A DNA stretch of 64,000 nt from an uncultured Prevotellaceae bacterium. GTDB lineage: Bacteria > Bacteroidota > Bacteroidia > Bacteroidales > Bacteroidaceae. How positions within the stretch are numbered: position 1 is the first letter of the stretch; every line of letters starts with the position of its first letter. Below, one piece after another: positions 7,011 to 49,743 of this stretch. The DNA is taken from the NCBI GenBank assembly GCA_902779455.1, contig CACZBS010000014.1, forward strand, positions 1 to 64,000, given 5' to 3'. The notes beneath the pieces are model-generated. The model had not been told where the DNA came from. It was given only the letters and a program-made list of their open reading frames with translations, and did no database searches. The position numbers and the translations under genes were made by a program.

Positions 7011-8000
7011 ATGGGAATGATAGGAATCCCCTTGTGGGCGTGGATTTTGTTCTACGTATTGGTGATTGTGATGCTGGTGGCCGACCTGAAGATGTTTGCC
7101 CGCAAGGGTGAGCATGAGGTCAACGTGAAGGAGGCGCTTAAGATGACGGCCGTGTGGATCGGCGTGTCGCTAGTCTTCTGCGCAGGCATCTGGCTGTTCT
7201 ATCCCGTCGAGCCGCACGAGAAGGCGATGGAGTTCCTGGCCGGCTATCTGATAGAGAAGTCACTGTCGATGGACAACCTCTTTGTGTTCCTGATGCTCTT
7301 CGGCTATTTCGGCGTCGAGCGGAAATATCAGCACGAGGTGCTCTTCTGGGGCATCTTCGGCGCCCTCATCCTGCGTAGCATCTTCATCTTTGCCGGTGCG
7401 GCCGTGGTGGAGCGCTTCGAGTGGGTGCTCGGCTTGTTCGGACTGTTCCTGCTCTATACGGGCGGCAAGATGTTCACCCACGACGACAATGCCCAGATCG
7501 ATCCCTCGCAGAACCTCATCGTCAGGTGGTTCCGCCGCGTCTTCCCCGTCAGCGACCGCATGCACGGCGACCGCTTCTTCATCACCGAGCAGGGCCGCCG
7601 CATGGCCACCCCGCTGTTCGTCGCCCTGCTGGTCATCGAGACGAGCGACGTGGCCTTTGCCGTCGACTCCATCCCAGCCGTGTTCAGTGTCTCGCGCGAC
7701 CCGTTCATCGTGCTCACGTCGAACATCTTCGCCATCCTCGGCCTGCGCGCCCTCTACTTTGCCCTGGCCGCCATCGCCCAGTACTTCGGCTACCTGAAGT
7801 ATGGTCTGGGCATCATCCTCATCTTTGTCGGCCTGAAGATGCTGCTCGCTATGAACGAATATGTCAATGCTTTGGGCGAGATGGTCGGCCTGCAGCTCAA
7901 CATGCCGCACATCGAGGTGCCCACGCCCGTCAGCCTGGCTTTCATCTTCGGCGTGCTGACAATCTCGATCTTGGCCTCTATGCTGAAGGCCAAGAAATGA
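7011..8000 (+). CDS. alx: Alx/TerC-family integral membrane metal exporter
   Basis: A 329-residue protein with about 8-9 membrane segments, close in length to E. coli Alx (321). Recognisable blocks: GYLIEKSLSMDNLFVFLMLF with the conserved acidic residue in the membrane, GALILRSIFIFAG, and SDVAFAVDSIPAVF followed by DPFIVLTSNIFAILGLRAL. E. coli Alx exports Mn2+ and is controlled by a Mn2+/pH riboswitch; I see no yybP-ykoY-like element here, although the leader holds a long hairpin. ATG 7011 was chosen over an upstream in-frame TTG; ATG 7017 is also possible. Convergent with the next gene. Confidence 0.88.
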   Translation: MGMIGIPLWAWILFYVLVIVMLVADLKMFARKGEHEVNVKEALKMTAVWIGVSLVFCAGIWLFYPVEPHEKAMEFLAGYLIEKSLSMDNLFVFLMLFGYFGVERKYQHEVLFWGIFGALILRSIFIFAGAAVVERFEWVLGLFGLFLLYTGGKMFTHDDNAQIDPSQNLIVRWFRRVFPVSDRMHGDRFFITEQGRRMATPLFVALLVIETSDVAFAVDSIPAVFSVSRDPFIVLTSNIFAILGLRALYFALAAIAQYFGYLKYGLGIILIFVGLKMLLAMNEYVNALGEMVGLQLNMPHIEVPTPVSLAFIFGVLTISILASMLKAKK

Positions 8001-8001
8001 A

Positions 8002-8083
8002 AGATGAAAAGTGAAAGATGAAAGATATGATTAGTTTTAAAGGATCAAGTCTAATCATATCTTTCATCTTTCACTTTTCATCT
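8002..8083. repeat. Perfect 33-bp inverted repeat between convergent genes
   Basis: 8002-8034 and 8051-8083 are exact reverse complements over 33 bp, separated by 16 nt. The arms are made of AAGATGAAAAGTGAAAGATG-type purine repeats. It begins 2 nt after the alx stop and ends 8 nt before the stop of the minus-strand channel gene, so it may act as a two-way terminator or mRNA 3'-end stabiliser. Confidence 0.9.
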
Positions 8084-8090
8084 CTCATCT

Positions 8091-28693: not shown

Positions 28694-31600
28694 ATGGTGA
28701 GACGAATACTGATGTCGCTCCTCGTGGCGATGATCTCAATGGGCATGAGTGCCGGAGATAGGCAGAAGCTTAATTTCAATGGCGACTGGCGCCTCGCCGT
28801 GGGCGATGTGGCCGAGGCCGCTCAGCCATCCTTCGACGACAGCCGTTGGCAGCGCGTCACGCTGCCCTATGCCTTCAACGGCAGCGAGGCGTTCCAGAAG
28901 GACATCGTCGACCTGACTGACACGGTCTGCTGGTATCGGAAGCACTTCACACTGACGCAAGAGGACCTGCAGGGCAAGGTGTTCGTCGAGTTCGAGGGCG
29001 CCCGCCAGGGCTGCGATGTGTGGCTCAACGGCCAGAAGGTGGGCTTCTCGGACAATGGCGTGATGGCCTTCGGCTTCGATCTTACACCTTATATTATATT
29101 AGGTGAGAACGTCATGGCCGTGCGCTGCGACAATTCGTGGCAGTATCGTGACCGCGTGCTCGACAGCCGCTACCAGTGGAACGACAAGAACTTTAATGCC
29201 AACTACGGCGGACTGCCCAAGAACGTCTACCTGCATAAGACGGGCAAGATCTATCAGACGCTGCCCCTCTATTCGAACCTTGGCACGACGGGCACCTACG
29301 TCTATGCCACCGACTTCGACATCACGGGCCGTAAAGCCACCGTGCATGTCGAGAGTCAGGTGAAGAACGAGGATGACAAAGCCCACACCTTCCACCTTTT
29401 TGCACGTATTGTCAAACCTCGAAACGAATTGAATGTCATTATTCCCGGCAAGGCAGTCACGCTGCAGCCTGGCGAGACGCGTACCGTTTCGGTAGAACAG
29501 GAAGTAGACGACCTGCATTTCTGGTCGTGGGGCTACGGTTACCTGTACGACATAGAGACTTTCTTAGTGGAGAACGGAAGCGAGACAAGCAAGAATTCTC
29601 AATTCGACAAGGTAATCACCCGAACAGGCTTCCGCAAGACGGCGTTCAAGGACGGTAAGTTCTACCTGAACGACCGCTGCCTGATGGTTCATGGCTATGC
29701 CCAGCGCACCTCGAACGAGTGGCCGGGCGTGGGCATCTCGGTGCCGGCCTGGCTGAGCGACTATTCCAACGGGCTCATCGTCGAGTCCGGCGGCAACCTC
29801 GTCCGCTGGATGCACGTCTGCCCTTGGAAGCAGGACGTCGAGTCGTGCGACCGCGTCGGCCTTATCCAGGCCATGCCGGCCGGCGATGCCGAGAAGGACG
29901 TCGACGGTGCCCGCTGGCAGCAGCGCACCCAGCTGATGCGCGATGCCATCATTTATAACAGGAATAACCCTTCGGTCATATTCTACGAGTGTGGCAACTT
30001 CCGCATCTCGAAGGAGCACATGGAGGAGATGAAGCAGATTCGCGACCAGTACGACCCCAACGGCGGGCGCGCCATCGGCTCGCGCGAGATGCTCGACCGC
30101 CCCGAGGCTGAGTATGGCGGCGAGATGCTCTATATCAACAAGTCGGCCACGAAGCCGATGTGGGCCATGGAATACTGTCGCGACGAAGGTCTGCGCAAGT
30201 ATTGGGACGAGTACAGCTATCCTTACCACAAGGAGGGCGACGGACCGCTCTATCGCAATGCCCCGGCCCACGACTATAATCACAACATGGACGCCTTCGC
30301 CCGCCAGATGGTCGAGCGCTGGCATGAGTACTGGCTCGAGCGCCCCGGCACGGGGCGGCGCGTCTCGTCGGGCGGCGTGAAGATTGTCTTCAGCGACACC
30401 AACACGCACCATCGCGGCGAGTCGAACTATCGTATGAGCGGTGTCACCGATGCCATGCGTCTGCCGAAGGATGCCTTCTTCGCCCACCAGGTGATGTGGG
30501 ACGGATGGGTGAGCCCCGAGAAAGCCCGCACGCATATTATAGGTCATTGGAACTATGAGCCGGGGACGGTGAAGCCGGTCTATGTCGTCTCTACAGCCGA
30601 CTCCGTCGAGCTCTTCGTCAATGGCAAGAGTCAGGGCTTTGGCCGCCGCTCTCATCAGTGGCTCTTCACATGGGACGGCGTGCGCTATGAGGCCGGCACG
30701 CTCAAGGCTGTCGGCTATCAGAATTCTCCATCCTCAACCCTCAATTCCCAATTCACCGTCGAAACGGCCGGTGAGCCCTTCCAGCTGAGGCTGAAGGCCG
30801 TCACAAACCCCGACGGAGTCAAGGCCGACGGGGCCGACATGGTGCTCGTCGAGGTCGAGGTGGTCGACAAGCAGGGGCGCCGCTGCCCGCTCGACAATCG
30901 CATGGTCAACTTCCAACTATGGGGTGAGGCCAGCTGGATTGGCGGCATCGGCACCCGCAACAATGCTCAGTATTCACTTCCCGGTTCCCGGTCGGAAAAA
31001 GATCCCTCGCTGCTCGACTCAGCCAATAAGCGCAACCTTAGCGACAACTACGTCGGCCACATGTCGCTGCCCGTCGAGTGCGGTGTCAATCGCATCCTCA
31101 TCCGCACCACGCCCAATGCCGGTGAGATAGGTCTCGCTGTCCAGGCAGAAGGCCTCCGTCCCGCCTACCTGACTCTCAGCAGCAAGCCTTGTGACAAGGA
31201 GCAGGACCTGCCTGCCCTCACGCTGCGCCCCTCGCTCGTGCGTGGCGAGACCCCTGCCACTCCCAGCTATCATGACGTCCTGACGAGCGTCGGCATCGTC
31301 GACGCCAAGGCGGGCAGCAATGCCTCCGACCTGCAGAAAAGCTTCGACGACAACGAGCTGACCCAGTGGCAGAGCGACGGCGACCGTGCGCATGCCTGGG
31401 TAACCTATCGGCTGGAGCGGCGTGCAGCCATCAGCGAGATGACGCTGAAGCTGGCCGGCTGGCGCCAGAAGTGCTATCCCCTGGAGGTCTATGCCGGCCG
31501 TAAGAAGGTGTGGGAAGGCGTCACGCCCGCCACGCTCGGCTATGTGCACATCACCATCCCCCAGCCCGTGGCAGCCAAGGACTTGACCATCCGCATGGTC

Positions 31601-31744
31601 GGCCCAGTCCAGGACAGCAGCCGCTTCGGCCAAGTCAAGGAGCTGGCTGGCGGCGTGGCCAATGAGCTGGACCGGCTGAAGACGGAGAAGGGCAAGGTCG
31701 AGCTGCGCATCGTTGAGGCCGACCTGATGGAGAAAGTCAAGTAA
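28694..31744 (+). CDS. GH2-family protein with altered acid/base motif and discoidin-like C-terminus
   Basis: 1016 residues, exported (MVRRILMSLLVAMISMGMSA). GH2 sugar-binding domain (FEGARQGCDVWLNGQKVG), immunoglobulin-like domain, TIM barrel from about 310 to 560, then Ig-like domains (DUF4982-like) and a C-terminal galactose-binding/discoidin-like region (SFDDNELTQWQSDGDRAHAW). A nucleophile-like E493 lies in WAMEYCRDEG. The usual acid/base GNE is replaced by GNF (N435-F436); E432 just upstream could stand in. I recall relatives that also lack GNE, so it may mark a subfamily. In-frame simple-repeat sequence occurs at about residues 676-690. Joined to GH28, it probably acts on a pectic oligosaccharide. 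Confidence 0.8.
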   Translation: MVRRILMSLLVAMISMGMSAGDRQKLNFNGDWRLAVGDVAEAAQPSFDDSRWQRVTLPYAFNGSEAFQKDIVDLTDTVCWYRKHFTLTQEDLQGKVFVEFEGARQGCDVWLNGQKVGFSDNGVMAFGFDLTPYIILGENVMAVRCDNSWQYRDRVLDSRYQWNDKNFNANYGGLPKNVYLHKTGKIYQTLPLYSNLGTTGTYVYATDFDITGRKATVHVESQVKNEDDKAHTFHLFARIVKPRNELNVIIPGKAVTLQPGETRTVSVEQEVDDLHFWSWGYGYLYDIETFLVENGSETSKNSQFDKVITRTGFRKTAFKDGKFYLNDRCLMVHGYAQRTSNEWPGVGISVPAWLSDYSNGLIVESGGNLVRWMHVCPWKQDVESCDRVGLIQAMPAGDAEKDVDGARWQQRTQLMRDAIIYNRNNPSVIFYECGNFRISKEHMEEMKQIRDQYDPNGGRAIGSREMLDRPEAEYGGEMLYINKSATKPMWAMEYCRDEGLRKYWDEYSYPYHKEGDGPLYRNAPAHDYNHNMDAFARQMVERWHEYWLERPGTGRRVSSGGVKIVFSDTNTHHRGESNYRMSGVTDAMRLPKDAFFAHQVMWDGWVSPEKARTHIIGHWNYEPGTVKPVYVVSTADSVELFVNGKSQGFGRRSHQWLFTWDGVRYEAGTLKAVGYQNSPSSTLNSQFTVETAGEPFQLRLKAVTNPDGVKADGADMVLVEVEVVDKQGRRCPLDNRMVNFQLWGEASWIGGIGTRNNAQYSLPGSRSEKDPSLLDSANKRNLSDNYVGHMSLPVECGVNRILIRTTPNAGEIGLAVQAEGLRPAYLTLSSKPCDKEQDLPALTLRPSLVRGETPATPSYHDVLTSVGIVDAKAGSNASDLQKSFDDNELTQWQSDGDRAHAWVTYRLERRAAISEMTLKLAGWRQKCYPLEVYAGRKKVWEGVTPATLGYVHITIPQPVAAKDLTIRMVGPVQDSSRFGQVKELAGGVANELDRLKTEKGKVELRIVEADLMEKVK

Positions 31745-31855: not shown

Positions 31856-31940
31856 GAAGCGGCGCTTCTCGACCCGAAAAGCGGCACTTCTCGACCCGAA
31901 AAGCGGTACTTTTCAACCCGAAAAGCACCGCTTCTTTTTT
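31856..31940. repeat. 22-bp tandem repeat (AGCGGYRCTTYTCRACCCGAAA)
   Basis: Three full 22-bp units (31858-31879, 31880-31901, 31902-31923) and a partial fourth ending AGCACCGCTTCTTTT. Its first and last units can pair (AAGAAGCGG / CCGCTTCTT) to make a terminator-like structure with a T-run. The AGCGGNNCTTTTCGA motif is shared with the outer stems of the AT-core hairpins. It is the main content of the 426-bp gap 31745-32170. Confidence 0.85.
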
Positions 31941-37689: not shown

Positions 37690-37959
37690 ATGAACATCAA
37701 ACCATTAGCTGACCGCGTGCTGGTAGTGCCTGCACCGGCCGAAGAGAAAATCGGTGGTATCATCATTCCTGACACTGCAAAGGAGAAGCCCCTCCGCGGC
37801 ACCGTCAAGGCCGTAGGCCATGGCACCAAGGACGAGCAGATGGTCCTCAAGGAGGGCGACGAGGTGCTCTACGGCAAGTATGCCGGCACGGAGCTGGAGC
37901 TCGAGGGCGAGAAGTTCCTCATCATGCGTCAGAGCGACGTTCTCGCTGTGCTCGCTTAA
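37690..37959 (+). CDS. groES: Co-chaperonin GroES
   Basis: 89 residues, full length: [20 protein letters not shown], the mobile loop [13 protein letters not shown], the roof hairpin [20 protein letters not shown], and the C-terminal [11 protein letters not shown]. It caps the GroEL ring during folding. No standard promoter is clear between the palindrome at 37584 and the ATG. Confidence 0.96.
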
Positions 37960-39792
<1,833 letters not shown>

Positions 39793-39853: not shown

Positions 39854-39908
39854 ATGGGCCCTGCAAGAATCTGAGTTACATCTTTTATCAATATGGTGAT
39901 AGTGATTT

Positions 39909-40054
39909 CAACGCCCCCCTGCCCCCCTCTAATCTTAGAGGGGGAGTTGGATAGTACCGTAGGAGCAGATGAGCGCAGCGACACCGGCTGATGCGGGCGG
40001 CATGCACGCTAACTGACTCCCCCTCTAAGATTAGAGGGGGGCAGGGGGGCGTTG
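39909..40054. repeat. 146-bp palindromic element with CCCCCTCTAATCTTAGAGGGGG arms
   Basis: Ends CAACGCCCCCCTGCCCCCCT / AGGGGGGCAGGGGGGCGTTG. Each arm contains its own CCCCCTCTAATCTTAGAGG hairpin, around a ~65-nt unique middle. The architecture parallels the AAGGGGAGGGG elements but the sequence differs. In the 732-bp gap 39793-40524, the stretch 40055-40270 after it shows only an AAAAAGCCCCCGACA...TGTCGGGTTTTT long-range pairing. Confidence 0.85.
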
Positions 40055-40277
40055 ACAGCTGTCGGGAACTTATCGCCACATTGAGTATCTTTTCGTATAA
40101 ACAATGACGAGTTTCAATCCATTTCATTCCCCCCCCTCACTCCCTACAAGCGCGGCTTGCGAACACGAGTGGACACCACATTTGTAAAGTCGAGTTGACA
40201 AAAAGCCCCCGACATGCTGACGGACGGATGATGTAAATCAATTTTTAGGGTTGGCGGATCATTTTGTCGGGTTTTTG

Positions 40278-40692: not shown

Positions 40693-43565
40693 AGCGTTTT
40701 TTTCTCTCGATGCTGCTGACGGCCGTCGCCGGACTGACCGCATGGGGCCAGCACTACCTGCCCATGGACCGCGCCTTCATCTGCGAGAACGGCTCCAACC
40801 GTTTCACCCGTGCCCTCTACGGCACCCACGGCGACTATCGTGTGGAGACGAGCGACCGCCCCATCTTCGCCGTCGTGAAGAAAGGCCATCACAAGAGCGT
40901 GCGCTTCGAGGTGGCCGGCGTGCCGCTGGAGCAGACCGACTATTGCTGGACGTCGTATGAGAGCGGCATCCGCAAGTATATCCTTCAGGACAAGCGGCTG
41001 GCTGAGGCCGGAATCAAGGTGCTGCGCGTCAACGTCGTGGCCCGTCACGACGAGGAGGGAGCCATCTGGCAGTTCATTGCCGACAAGTATCCCTATGCGC
41101 TCCACGTGAAGGTGAAGCTCTGCGACATCGCCCGGCCGAAGCTGAAACGCAACGGCGACCTGGGCGTCGACGCCCCTGACACGTTTGAGCCGGCTCCCGG
41201 CGACGGCGGCCTGCAGGAGGGCGAGTGCACCTATGCCTGCAACTTCGCCCACCTCGTGATGCGACTCGACGAGATCCTGCCCGTCAGCGACGTGTCGGCC
41301 TTCGAGCTCTACTCCAATACCGTCGACTATAACCGCCGGCTGGCCTCGCGAATCGAGTTCAACACGCCCGATCCCTTCATCAACACGCTGGGCGGCGCAC
41401 TCGTCATGGCTGCCGACGGCGACTGGGACGGCCAGACGTGGCTCCACGGCTGCATCGGATGGCGCATGCCGCTGGCCGGATGGCGGGCCGGCTATCTAGG
41501 CGACGTGCTGGGCTGGCCCGACCGTGCCGTCAGCCACTTCAATGCCTATGCCAAGAGTCAGGTGACCGACGTGGCGCCCACCATTGCCCACCCCTCGCAG
41601 GACGCTGCCCAGAACATGGCGCGTGCGGAGAAGAAGTGGGGCACGCAGATGTACTCCAACGGCTACATCTGCCGCAATCCTGAGCGCAACGACCAGATGC
41701 ACCACTACGACATGAACCTCAACTACATCGACGAGCTGATGTGGCATTTCCAGTTTGATGCCGACCCTGACTACATGCGCCAGATGTGGCCCGTCATCAA
41801 GAGACACCTGGAGTGGGAGAAGCGCAACTACGACCCCGACGGCGACCATCTCTACGATGCCTACTGCTGCATCTGGGCCAGCGACGCCCTCTACTACAGC
41901 GGCGGAGCCGTCACACATTCCTCGGCCTACAACTATCGCGCCAACCTGCTGGCAGCTCGCATCGCACAGCTCATCGGCGAGGACGCCGCGCCCTATCAGA
42001 CTGAGGCCGACGCCATCCTGAAGGCCATGAACGAGCGCCTCTGGCTCAACGACAAGGGCCACTGGGCCGAATATCAGGACGCCATGGGTCACAAACGTCT
42101 GCACAAGAGCGCCGCTCTATGGTCGATCTACACCCCGATCGACTGTGGCGCCTGCACGCCTGAGCAGGCCTATCGCGCCACGCTCTACGTCGACTCGGAG
42201 ATTCCCCACATCGACGTCGGCAACACGCCCTACCAGACCATCGCCACCTCCAACTGGCAGCCCTACGAGTGGAGCATCAACAACGTGGCGGCAGCCGAGG
42301 TGATGCACACGGCGCTGGCCTACTTCGAGGCCGGCCGGCACAACGACGGCTATCGCCTGATGATGGCCAACGTGTTGGACCAGATGTATCTCGGACAGTC
42401 GCCAGCCAACTTCGGACAGCTCAGCCGCTACGACGCTGCACGCGGCGAGTGCTACCGCGACTTCGGCGACTGCATCGGCATCTCGGCCCGCACACTCCTG
42501 CAGGGACTCTTCGGCATCCTGCCACGTGCCCTCTACGGTGAGTGCATCCTGCGCCCGGGATTCCCCGAATACTGGCATCATGCGTCGGTGAAGACACCTT
42601 ATATAGAATATAAGTACACGCGCGAGGGCAACACCGACCGCTATGAGGTGACCCAGAACTTCAGCCAGCCGCTGAAGATCATCCTCCGACAGAACCTGGG
42701 CGGCGGGCGCTACCGCGACGTCGAGGGCACGGCCGACCACCATCAGGTCATCACCCTCGAGCATGCTGCCGACGCCCAGCAGGGCTTGGCCGTCAGCTAT
42801 GAGCGCGAGGTTGACCTAAGTGTCGTCACCTCTACGCAGGAGCCGCAGGGTGGCCATGGCTATAGGATGCACAACATCGACGGCTACTTCAATGCCGACG
42901 TGACCGACATCTTCAAGAACCGCTACGAGAGTCCGCGTCCGCTGACGACGACGCTCCAGATACCCCTGCAGGGAGCCGGCGACTGGTGTCATCCGCAGTA
43001 CACGCCCACCATCGACGACTCAGGTCTGCGCCAGATGGCCCGCGGCGATAAGTTCGTCGTGGCTGGTGTGCCCTTCCGCACGCCGCAGACGGGCCATAAC
43101 ATCGTCTACACGTCGCTCTGGGACAACTATCCCAGCTCGGTCGAGATCCCCCTGAAGGGCAAGGGCCGCATGCTCTGGCTTCTGATGGCCGGATCGACCA
43201 ACCACATGCAGAGCCAGATTGACAACGGCATCGTCGTCGTCACCTATCGCAACGGTCATCGCGACACGCTCGCGCTGAAGAATCCTGACAACTGGTGCCC
43301 CATCGACAAGGACTATTATGAGGACGGGAAGGCCTTCACCGCACAGCAGCCACGGCCCTATCGCATCAGCCTGCAGACGGGTCAGGTCAGCCGCGACCTC
43401 GGCCAGACGCTCGGGCTGACGGGCGCCGACGGTCGCATCATCCCCGGCGGCGCAGCCCAGATGCTCTGCATCCCGCTGAATCCCAAGAAACGGCTGAAGC
43501 AGCTGAAGGTGGAGACGCTGTCGAACGACGTCGTCATCGGACTGATGGGCGTCACGGTGCAGTGA
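40689..43565 (+). CDS. Exported DUF4450-family (alpha/alpha)-barrel protein, putative glycosidase
   Basis: 958 residues with a signal peptide (FFLSMLLTAVAGLTAWGQ). An N-terminal beta domain (residues 20-230) is followed by an (alpha/alpha)6-barrel-like region at about 240-640: GDWDGQTWLHGCIGWRMPLAGW, a YDMNLNYIDELMWHF segment, and WSINNVAAAEVMHTALAYFEAG. C-terminal beta-sandwich from about 650. Family DUF4450 occurs in Bacteroidetes polysaccharide contexts and the fold is that of inverting glycosidases such as GH78/GH95; catalytic residues not assigned. Translationally coupled to the upstream 55-residue membrane protein. Confidence 0.75.
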   Translation: MKRFFLSMLLTAVAGLTAWGQHYLPMDRAFICENGSNRFTRALYGTHGDYRVETSDRPIFAVVKKGHHKSVRFEVAGVPLEQTDYCWTSYESGIRKYILQDKRLAEAGIKVLRVNVVARHDEEGAIWQFIADKYPYALHVKVKLCDIARPKLKRNGDLGVDAPDTFEPAPGDGGLQEGECTYACNFAHLVMRLDEILPVSDVSAFELYSNTVDYNRRLASRIEFNTPDPFINTLGGALVMAADGDWDGQTWLHGCIGWRMPLAGWRAGYLGDVLGWPDRAVSHFNAYAKSQVTDVAPTIAHPSQDAAQNMARAEKKWGTQMYSNGYICRNPERNDQMHHYDMNLNYIDELMWHFQFDADPDYMRQMWPVIKRHLEWEKRNYDPDGDHLYDAYCCIWASDALYYSGGAVTHSSAYNYRANLLAARIAQLIGEDAAPYQTEADAILKAMNERLWLNDKGHWAEYQDAMGHKRLHKSAALWSIYTPIDCGACTPEQAYRATLYVDSEIPHIDVGNTPYQTIATSNWQPYEWSINNVAAAEVMHTALAYFEAGRHNDGYRLMMANVLDQMYLGQSPANFGQLSRYDAARGECYRDFGDCIGISARTLLQGLFGILPRALYGECILRPGFPEYWHHASVKTPYIEYKYTREGNTDRYEVTQNFSQPLKIILRQNLGGGRYRDVEGTADHHQVITLEHAADAQQGLAVSYEREVDLSVVTSTQEPQGGHGYRMHNIDGYFNADVTDIFKNRYESPRPLTTTLQIPLQGAGDWCHPQYTPTIDDSGLRQMARGDKFVVAGVPFRTPQTGHNIVYTSLWDNYPSSVEIPLKGKGRMLWLLMAGSTNHMQSQIDNGIVVVTYRNGHRDTLALKNPDNWCPIDKDYYEDGKAFTAQQPRPYRISLQTGQVSRDLGQTLGLTGADGRIIPGGAAQMLCIPLNPKKRLKQLKVETLSNDVVIGLMGVTVQ

Positions 43566-43601
43566 GAGTTGAGAACTGAGAGTTGAGAACTGAGAGTTGA
43601 G
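43564..43601 (+). repeat. 14-bp tandem repeat GAGAGTTGAGAACT x2.7
   Basis: Two perfect units and a 10-bp partial fill the whole 36-bp gap between the DUF4450 stop and the next ATG. It is purine-rich and could form an A/G-rich ribosome-binding stretch. The complementary strand version occurs inside guaA. Confidence 0.92.
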
Positions 43602-45131
43602 ATGCAACAGCTAATTGAACTATACAGACAGTGGAGGGGCGCTGAGCCGACGTCGACGGAGCGGCTGGCGGGTGCCGGCTCCAACCGGGCCTACTATCGC
43701 ATGGTGGACGAAGACGGGCGGAGCGTCATCGGCTGCATCGGCACCAGCCGCGACGAGAATCATGCCTTCGTCTATCTGGCCCGACATTTCGAGAAACGAC
43801 AGCTGCCCGTGCCCCGCGTGCTGGCCGTCAGCGACGACGAGCTGCGCTATCTGCAGCAGGACCTGGGGTCTACCTCGCTCTTCGATGCCATACGGGGCGG
43901 ACGCGAGGCGGGCGGACGCTACACCCTAGCTGAGCAGCAGTTGCTCCGGCGCACCATCCGCGAGCTGCCCAACGTGCAGTTCCGCGGTGCCCGCGGCCTC
44001 GACTTCTCCAATTGCTATCCCCAGCCGGAGTTCGACGTCGACGGCGTGCTCTTCGACCTCAACTACTTCAAATATTGCTTCCTGAAGGCCACCGAGCTCG
44101 ATTTCCACGAGCTGAAACTCGAGGCCGACTTCCGCCTGCTGGCAAAGGACCTGACGGCGGAGCGGAGCGAGAGCTTCCTCTATCGCGACTTCCAGGCACG
44201 CAACGTGATGCTGGTAGAGGGCGTCCCTTTCTTCATCGACTTCCAGGGTGGCCGGCGAGGCCCGTTCTACTACGACCTGGCGTCGTTCCTGTGGCAGGCC
44301 TCGGCACGCTATCCTGACCGCCTGCGCCGTGAGCTCCTCGATGAGTATTACGTTGCGGCGCAGCAGTTTATCGAGATGCCCAAGCGCGAGCACTTCGACC
44401 GCCGGCTGCAGCTCTTCGTACTCTTCCGCACGCTGCAGGTGCTGGGCGCCTATGGCTTCCGGGGCTATTTCGAGCAGAAGAAGCACTTCATCGACTCCAT
44501 ACCGCCTGCCATCCAGAACCTGCGCGAGCTGCTCAGTGCCCAGCAGTTGCCTTATCCCTACCTGGCCGACATCCTGAAGCGGCTGACCGAGCTGCCCCAG
44601 TTCCAGCGCATTGAGGTGTCCGCACAGACGCGTGCTGACGGCTATAAGACCACCGACCGCAACCCCTACAGGGCCCACCCGAAGGACGGACCGGCCACGT
44701 TCTCGAAGTATGACGCCCAGGGCCCGCTGGTGGTCCGGGTGTTCAGCTTCAGCTATCGCAAGGGCATCCCCGAAGACGAGAGCGGCAACGGCGGCGGCTA
44801 TGTCTTCGACTGCCGCTCGACGCATAACCCCGGCCGCTATGAGCCCTACAAGCAGCTGACGGGACTCGACGAGCCCGTCATCCGATTCCTTGAGGACGAC
44901 GGTGAGATCCTGACCTTCCTCGACAGCGTCTATCGGCTGGCTGATGCCCATGTGGCCCGCTACATCCAGCGAGGCTTCACCTCGCTAATGTTCTCGTTCG
45001 GATGTACGGGCGGTCAGCACCGCTCCGTCTACAGCGCGCAGCATCTGGCCGAGCATATCCATCAGAAGTTCGGCGTCGAGGTGCGCATCGTGCATCGCGA
45101 GCAGGGCATCACGCAGGTGCTCAAGGACTGA
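43602..45131 (+). CDS. Fusion of AmgK-like sugar kinase (APH fold) and RapZ C-terminal domain
   Basis: 509 residues. 1-340: aminoglycoside-phosphotransferase fold with AGAGSNRAYYRM (P-loop-like), the catalytic loop YRDFQARNV (D196) and the metal-binding D213 in FIDFQGG; closest in character to AmgK, the MurNAc/GlcNAc anomeric kinase. 375-509: RapZ C-terminal domain with VRVFSFSYRKGIP, FDCRSTHNPG and FGCTGGQHRSVYSAQHLAEH (C468, H473), which in E. coli RapZ binds GlcN6P and RNA. The RapZ N-terminal P-loop ATPase is absent and the kinase takes its place. With the MurU-like gene at 47327 it suggests peptidoglycan sugar recycling. Its 3' end overlaps the convergent gene by 11 bp. Confidence 0.85.
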   Translation: MQQLIELYRQWRGAEPTSTERLAGAGSNRAYYRMVDEDGRSVIGCIGTSRDENHAFVYLARHFEKRQLPVPRVLAVSDDELRYLQQDLGSTSLFDAIRGGREAGGRYTLAEQQLLRRTIRELPNVQFRGARGLDFSNCYPQPEFDVDGVLFDLNYFKYCFLKATELDFHELKLEADFRLLAKDLTAERSESFLYRDFQARNVMLVEGVPFFIDFQGGRRGPFYYDLASFLWQASARYPDRLRRELLDEYYVAAQQFIEMPKREHFDRRLQLFVLFRTLQVLGAYGFRGYFEQKKHFIDSIPPAIQNLRELLSAQQLPYPYLADILKRLTELPQFQRIEVSAQTRADGYKTTDRNPYRAHPKDGPATFSKYDAQGPLVVRVFSFSYRKGIPEDESGNGGGYVFDCRSTHNPGRYEPYKQLTGLDEPVIRFLEDDGEILTFLDSVYRLADAHVARYIQRGFTSLMFSFGCTGGQHRSVYSAQHLAEHIHQKFGVEVRIVHREQGITQVLKD

Positions 45132-48096: not shown

Positions 48097-49743
48097 ATGC
48101 AACAGAAGATCATCATCCTCGACTTCGGCTCGCAGACCACCCAGCTCATCGGACGACGGGTGCGCGAACTCGACACCTTCTGCGAAATCCTTCCCTACAA
48201 CAAGTTTCCCAAGGACGACCCGACGGTCATCGGCGTGATTCTTTCGGGCTCACCCTACTCGGTGCACGATCCCGAAGCCTTCAAGGTCGACCTCAGCCAG
48301 TTTGTCGGTCGCGTGCCTGTGCTGGGCATCTGCTATGGCGCTCAGTTCATCTCGCACACCATGGGAGGCCGCGTCGAAAAGGCCGACTCGCGCGAATATG
48401 GCCGCGCCCATCTTGAGATGGTCGACACGTCGAATCCGCTCTTCCGGGGCTTCGACCAGCATTCTCAGGTGTGGATGAGCCATGGCGACACGATCACGGC
48501 TATCCCCGACGGCTTCAAGGTCATCGGCTCGACCAAGGATGTCAAGAACGCTGCCTTCTGGTCGCCCGCAGGCACTCAATTCTCAATTCTCAACTCTCAA
48601 CTCTCAGCTCCCGTCTTTGCCGTGCAGTTCCATCCCGAGGTGTTCCACACCGTCCAGGGCTCCCTGCTGCTGAAGAATTTCGTGGTCGACATCTGCGGCT
48701 CACGCCAGGAGTGGTCGGCTGCCTCGTTCGTCGATACGACCGTGGCCGAACTGAAGGAGCAGCTGGGCCAGGACCGCGTCATCCTCGGACTGTCCGGCGG
48801 TGTCGATTCCAGTGTGGCCGCCGTGCTGCTGAGCCGTGCCATCGGCGACCGGCTCACCTGCATCTTCGTCGACCACGGTATGCTGCGCAAGAATGAGTTC
48901 CAGCAGGTGATGGACGACTATAAGGTGCTGGGCCTCAACGTTATCGGTGTCGACGCCAGCGAGAAGTTCTTTGCCGACCTGGCCGGTGTCACCGAGCCGG
49001 AGCAGAAGCGCAAGATCATCGGCCGCGACTTCGTCGAGGTGTTCAATGCCGAGGCTAAGAAGATCACGGATGCCAAGTGGCTCGCCCAGGGTACCATCTA
49101 TCCCGACCGCATCGAGAGCCTCAACATCACGGGCAAGGTCATCAAGAGCCACCACAACGTCGGCGGACTGCCCAAGGAGATGCATCTGCAACTCTGCGAA
49201 CCGCTGAAGTGGCTGTTCAAGGACGAGGTGCGCCGCGTGGGCCGCCAGTTGGGTATGCCTGAGCACCTCATCACGCGCCATCCTTTCCCAGGCCCCGGCC
49301 TGGCCGTGCGCATCCTCGGCGACATCACGCCCGAGAAGGTGCGCGTCCTGCAAGACGCCGACGACATCTACATCCGCGGACTGCGCGACTATAAGGTGCG
49401 GCTCTCGGGCGAGGAAGCCCGCCGCGTGCTGGCCGCCGGCGTGCCTGCCGAGATGCAGGACGGCGAGATCGAGGTCTCGCTCTACGACCAGATCTGGCAG
49501 GCCGGCGCTATCCTCCTCTCCACCGTCCGCTCGGTCGGCGTCATGGGCGATGAGCGCACCTACGAGAACCCCGTCGCCCTGCGCGCCGTCACTTCGAGCG
49601 ACGCCATGACTGCCGACTGGGCCCACCTGCCCTACGACTTCATGGCCCGCGTCTCGAATGAAATCATCAACAAGGTGCGCGGCGTCAACCGCGTCTGCTA
49701 CGACATCTCCTCAAAACCACCCGCAACGATTGAGTGGGAGTGA
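48097..49743 (+). CDS. guaA: GMP synthase (glutamine-hydrolysing)
   Basis: 548 residues, longer than the usual ~510-525. Class I amidotransferase domain with C79 in GICYGAQFI and VQFHPEV; ATP pyrophosphatase domain with the P-loop [14 protein letters not shown]-terminal dimerisation domain ending [11 protein letters not shown]. Two insertions: residues ~159-172 ([11 protein letters not shown]), encoded exactly by a CTCAATTCTCAACTCTCAA repeat, and ~430-457 between GLRDY and SLYDQIW (charged, [18 protein letters not shown]). It converts XMP to GMP. No promoter of its own seen; probably cotranscribed with murU. Confidence 0.95.

Follow-up and report, generated by a model that had tools for sequence, protein, structure and literature searches.

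In-frame copies of dispersed heptad and palindromic repeats in guaA and other genes of Prevotella-group bacteria

We analyzed a 64,000-nucleotide stretch of DNA from an uncultured Prevotellaceae bacterium (contig CACZBS010000014.1; hereafter the window), in which guaA, the gene of the glutamine-hydrolysing GMP synthase, lies on the plus strand at 48097..49743. The gene is one uninterrupted frame of 548 amino acids plus stop, and its translation matches solved GMP synthases, 5tw7 being the best match (E 2e-169). Inside this frame, TRF finds an in-frame array of the heptad CTCAAYT on the plus strand at 48575..48610, with period 7, 5.1 copies, 93% matches and a score of 51. A first-pass annotation had placed here an insertion of 33 nt (48574-48607); the array in fact measures 36 nt or 12 codons and encodes a 12-amino-acid stretch directly N-terminal of an 11-amino-acid segment, which we take to carry the catalytic His. 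The insert (P0001 positions 160-171) lies 8 residues ahead of this presumed catalytic residue (179). When guaA was matched against itself at lag 7, the best 36-nt stretch agreed at 27 of 29 positions, while the best of 500 codon-shuffled copies reached 19. In the HMMER alignment, 5tw7 is 12 residues shorter than the window protein at the insert, and from this alignment and the length tolerance described below we regard the site as a putative loop. TRF, translation and shuffles confirm the annotation's central statement, namely that a dispersed genomic repeat stands in frame in guaA, in the loop before the VQFHPEV motif.

The window holds further repeats of this kind. An intergenic array on the minus strand at 43563..43602 has period 14, two heptads alternating (TRF), and matches an arm of element A (see below) by blastn. 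The guaA repeat had been read as the complement of this array; both indeed share a heptad family on opposite strands, but the copies are not identical and the guaA array is no copy of the intergenic one. Degenerate heptads also lie in frame on the plus strand at 30716..30760, where the DNA of a 1016-amino-acid ORF (28694-31744), by resemblance presumably a GH2 beta-galactosidase, encodes the peptide SPSSTLNSQFT. About 110 bp past the end of this ORF, a 22-bp unit is tandemly repeated (31857-31926, 3.2 copies, 91% matches). An unstranded hairpin at 7997..8088 consists of an inverted repeat with 38-nt arms, 97% complementary, made of ATGAAAG-type heptads; its core boundary GATATGATTAG/CTAATCATATC is also that of element A, the heptads being different, and the segment 7990-8100 folds with z -11.2. 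The inverted repeat 37956-38157 has AGTGAAG heptad arms of 44 nt, 91% complementary, and the inner boundary GAATTTGCTGCCGC/GC.GAAGCAAATTC; judging from the peptides, it presumably lies after groES ends and before groEL begins. A second inner boundary, approximately GAGTTTGCTACCGC/GCGGTAGCAAACTC, was seen joined to differing heptads in this inverted repeat, in the L003 guaA loop and in loop 2 of the L250 MutS2. Finally, a very strong GC-rich hairpin is present at 39908-40055 (47-nt arms, 94% complementary, -111 kcal/mol, z -13.4).

For a comparison with relatives we read 170 guaA loci, all of which pass through the loop without a stop codon; four of them, which read VQYHPE and have a short loop, were not placed in the tree, and 23 of the other 166 loops were merged because of identical C-terminal sequences, leaving 143 distinct GuaA. 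In this set the window's species is represented by one genome. Aligning GuaA, as the annotation had proposed, did reveal relatives without the insert: 77 of the 143 have the default short loop, with 39-43 amino acids from HGD to FHPE (41 in 63 of these 77), and 66 carry an insert (44-80 amino acids). With 53 amino acids, the window protein is 12 residues longer than the commonest form, so that the earlier estimate of about 11 fewer residues in relatives was close; for 5tw7 the difference is likewise 12. Instead of one peptide conserved as the normal loop, which would have spoken against an insertion, we found a loop that is hypervariable across the group. The inserts differ by species and comprise several heptads and GC-rich palindromes. 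By eye, 25 of the 66 were assigned to heptad classes (CTCAACT 9, AAAGTTC 6, AAATTGT 4, CAACATT 3, and CCACCAT, CACTCTT and CTCTCCC 1 each); 14 were classed as GC-rich palindromes, 11 by pattern and 3 by eye; the remaining 27 were left unclassified, some of them being visibly GC-rich repeats. The L026 gene contains 30 bp extra within an AAAGTTC array that is unbroken in L021. A GC-rich 30-bp module (GCTCGGCT.TGCCGCTT-like) was seen between heptad units in the L026 and L067 loops; its place in L026 is precisely the junction of two units of the array that is uninterrupted in L021.

A tree of GuaA from which the loop was excluded requires at least 23 changes of the default/insert state (48 for the full class set), while 200 shuffles of the binary labels require 40-56. 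This clustering indicates that the inserts are partly inherited yet often changing. In the pairs L132/L088, L079/L086 and L091/L099 the members differ by a whole insert despite 92-94% identity over 1000 nt downstream. From this data we conclude that the GuaA loop has often switched between the empty and the filled state, the filling being unrelated repeats. One may ask whether the insert is kept for a benefit to GuaA, such as regulation or partner contact, the repeats providing just the raw material. A site 8 residues before the presumed catalytic His that is repeatedly filled would suit such a function. The inserts, however, give loops of anywhere between 44 and 80 amino acids with unrelated peptides and no visible conservation, more than half of the distinct GuaA (77 of 143) do without one, and the same repeats occur in many unrelated proteins; we consider a functional loop quite improbable.

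Next to the loop itself, we searched 36 genomes of our own choice for heptad arrays. ATTCAAC arrays were present in all three genomes with that guaA insert and in one of the 33 others (Fisher p 0.0006). The four genomes with exact AAAGTTC inserts in guaA gave 66, 30, 38 and 21 AAAGTTC hits, a few of which are contributed by the guaA insert itself, compared to none in 24 and 2-34 in eight of the 32 other genomes (p 0.0001). The L165 insert (AATTTCA-like) belongs to the AAAGTTC class in the tree and was left out of this test; its genome has 4 hits. For CTCAACT, the window genome and that of L153 gave 30 and 47 strict hits, but the L002, L003 and L103 genomes only 1, 1 and 2 although their guaA bears the CTCAACT type, while 51 occur in the L046 genome, where guaA carries a different heptad. 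When R is G, reversing the CTCAACT pattern yields a rotation of that heptad and hence no valid control. The guaA heptad type follows the genome-abundant type for two of the three heptads tested; the CTCAACT match is not clear.

The strict heptad pattern is found at 19 places in the window genome. In-frame heptads stand there in Pfam-recognised genes for alpha-2-macroglobulin, GH92, GH28, GlnRS, MutS2 and Dxs, which is where the NSQLS/NSQFS-type peptides turned up that the annotation had proposed to look for in further genes. By alignment, the 40-amino-acid insert of Dxs is absent from all 28 other Dxs, and a stretch similar to the GlnS heptads exists in one of 26 other GlnS (L190). For MutS2, L250 shows a similar stretch, and in several of the 23 relatives the two loops concerned are occupied by other sequence that looks like repeats. 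Because other species fill these loops with other repeat-like sequence, MutS2 and GlnS, too, have recurrent landing sites. The L256 MutS2 carries element B (described below) at the same spot as the window genome. Repeat-like sequence of another type was also noted where the window genome holds repeats in L252, L257 and L260 (MutS2 loop 1) and in L196 and L198 (GlnS).

In Prevotella sp. MA2016 and X. ruminicola D31d, two records whose titles do not say MAG, 11 array sites were looked at, and 6 of them lie in Pfam-matched ORFs, with the heptads in frame. HlyD-type and metallophosphoesterase genes carry heptads at the same position in both; further hosts are a LytTR regulator and an FHA protein with the array ahead of the domain, and two of the other five sites lie at the start of a frame. 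These records bear on the concern that the insert is an assembly artefact of a metagenome-assembled genome. The window genome, 93% complete, is in draft form with 49 contigs, and most insert-bearing relatives are titled MAG, which would fit this concern; against it stand the in-frame heptads in the two records just named, the 170 guaA loci that are all open through the loop, and a codon change shared by the sense arms of independent copies in many genes (see below). We hold an artefact to be most improbable.

Some heptad arrays are arms of a larger hairpin, element A. It is about 130 bp long, has heptad arms and the core boundary TATGATTA/TAATCATA, and the alignment of 14 copies gives terminal inverted repeats with the arms GAGAACTGAGAGG.../...CCTCTCAGTTCTC. 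The insert in Dxs represents a complete element A, composed of heptads, GAGGTATGATTA, a variable core, TAATCATACCTC and again heptads; it folds with z -11.0, and none of 200 shuffles folds as well. Element B, of about 93 bp, constitutes the second MutS2 insert (z -6.2; 0 of 200 shuffles fold as well), is 95% identical between its MutS2 and transglutaminase copies, and was found in 33 of 200 same-genus genomes (E up to 1e-10, at most four candidates scored per genome). Among 14 copies of element B, 0 of 25 pairs showed two-sided compensatory change. In guaA itself, the inserted heptad array comes with no hairpin. The core motif lies within 34 nt in 15 of 41 heptad arrays, from stretches partly chosen by element A, and within 48 nt at 5 of the 19 strict heptad sites, guaA not being among these five. 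Because guaA has no core motif nearby and only five strict sites do, we describe its array as a free array or a putative solo arm. The annotation's picture of a dispersed repeat inside guaA holds for this gene, but has to be widened, as some arrays are hairpin arms and the loop accepts unrelated repeats as well.

Further hosts of these hairpin elements were collected by protein-level matches. In the window genome 9 of 10 such ORFs are Pfam-recognised (transglutaminase, ArgRS, FAD protein, GH38, AAA helicase, GH127, ABC ATPase, pullulanase, MiaB-like), and in two further genomes 10 of 10 (G022: DnaG, MutY, DnaE, a poly(A)-polymerase-type protein, GH31, Mfd, GH94; G034: a ClpB/ClpC-type ATPase, LeuRS, LytTR). 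Because this route favors coding copies, a DNA-level search was added. By codon usage on both flanks, using a codon model trained partly on host genes, element A stands in open frame inside genes of the window genome at 21 of the 41 sites, which came from scoring 40 of 65 candidates and do not include four of the strict heptad sites, and element B at 21 of 24 placed sites (one of 25 had no locus). Random window sites were called in genes in 1422 of 2000 cases (71%, 30 nt) and 1376 of 2000 (69%, 90 nt), and element-flanking positions in 310 of 406. Genes do not avoid element B (p 0.07, towards excess) and mildly avoid element A (p 0.009, rarer than random). These genomes hold several dispersed repeat families, of which many copies are in open frame inside otherwise intact genes.

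A purely local origin has to be weighed against these elements: a chance heptad seed in the tolerant GuaA loop may have been lengthened by replication slippage, with nothing arriving from elsewhere. Heptads are called prone to polymerase slippage in the earlier work that part of PMC4679880 summarises, GuaA loops of 46 and 53 amino acids with a common motif are 7 amino acids or 3 heptads apart, and the unclear match of the CTCAACT type to its genome also agrees with such an origin. Slippage, however, cannot make elements of 93-130 bp that are nearly identical between unrelated genes, as is element B, it leaves unrelated GC-rich palindromes in the same loop unaccounted for, and AAAGTTC and ATTCAAC inserts follow their genomes. 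In-situ expansion is in our view unlikely, though the least improbable of the rivals considered here.

The element A arms allowed a closer look at translation. In one of the two strands, the heptads yield a TGA at intervals of 21 nt. All 13 sense arms of element A are without the in-frame TGA (GGA in 9, TTA in 4, L295 being scored TTA by its peptide), while TGA is kept in 26 of the 28 remaining arms, which are opposite or lie between genes and include L317, antisense to a called gene. The two exceptions are the intergenic L313 with GGA and the opposite arm of L294 with TTA. Ten of the 13 sense arms are in Pfam-recognised genes; L117, L126 and L315 rest on codon usage. Because an open frame requires the loss of TGA by definition, this loss alone is not informative. 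Informative are the facts that within a single copy the two arms show the expected difference and that both codon changes recur across genes and in two genomes. Element A displays a survival filter: in the sense arm, GGA or TTA replaces the TGA expected from the heptad.

Among described systems, the closest is the RPE. The sections of a review on Ogata et al. 2000 and 2002 give about 150 bp for it and 44 insertions in unrelated R. conorii genes, often in frame, and call a similar process in other prokaryotes "conceivable" (PMC10969869). RPE are, as portrayed there, short dispersed palindromes that form hairpins, with several families per genome and many copies in frame in unrelated metabolic genes. 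Elements A and B resemble them as dispersed hairpin palindromes of about 100-150 bp with many in-frame copies in intact-looking genes. They differ from RPE by belonging to another phylum, by the 7-bp repeat arms around a short core boundary in element A, by free heptad arrays that use the same landing sites, and by arms that vary between species. The Prevotella-group repeats work like RPE, beside which, and not among which, we set them, by description and not by sequence homology. REP elements (GTAG/CGTC-tagged) with RAYT are, according to PMC3733652, small hairpins that are mostly intergenic, some of which lie wholly inside ORFs, among these genes for DNA repair and for tRNA synthetases; element B, in contrast, is not depleted in genes (21/24). 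The RAYT transposase Y1_Tnp (PF01797) gave 0 matches in the window genome (G000, 93% complete) and in G094, and matches in G034, G022 (below cut-off), G117 and G045. Filing elements A and B as REP was rejected, the window genome giving no RAYT match. The cyanobacterial STRR are dispersed tandem 7-bp units, mainly intergenic. Heptanucleotide repeats such as TAACTGA are described likewise, with Bacteroidetes among the holders, in the relevant part of PMC4679880. Tandem 7-bp units (TRF period 7) are the trait shared with both, but the arrays here have other unit sequences and occur in frame in genes and as hairpin arms. MITEs, as outlined in portions of PMC10969869 and, for BrickBuilt of P. gingivalis, of PMC5771137, combine non-autonomous size, terminal inverted repeats and high copy number. 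Our elements share these traits (the inverted repeats in element A) but reside frequently in frame, with no target duplication and, by the PF01797 search alone, no partner transposon recognised. An open-access literature text search for in-frame repeats in Prevotella gave no such title among the matches listed.

Taken together, the guaA insert is probably one copy of a dispersed heptad repeat which ended up in a tolerant loop and is translated, be it as a solo hairpin arm or as a free array. In this scenario copies would arrive in trans by some mobilisation or template-switching process; insertions would survive only where the loop is permissive, the frame is kept and no in-frame stop comes along; and the heptad number may later shift in 21-nt steps. 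Filled and empty loops compared by eye revealed no recognisable target duplication, the loops being too divergent to define the empty site. More speculatively, and with some doubt on our side, the core boundary TATGATTA/TAATCATA might persist while the heptad arms turn over, and TGA-less sub-lineages, GGA and TTA each in several genes and two genomes, might spread from gene to gene as translatable cassettes that still create protein loops, the GuaA and MutS2 loops serving as recurrent landing pads.

In-frame palindromic repeats, which a 2002 title by Ogata reportedly calls peculiar to Rickettsia, are seen here at high density in Bacteroidota. Intragenic REPs are already known from other bacteria, as the intragenic cases given in PMC3733652 illustrate. 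In the Prevotella group, unrelated repeats have sampled a single enzyme loop in many species. This amounts to a natural experiment in which one can follow how new protein sequence is made from selfish DNA and how much insertion a central enzyme will bear. As a caution for annotation, protein stretches of this group that resemble NSQLS, KVQSS or APSGAVGG can stem from repeats.
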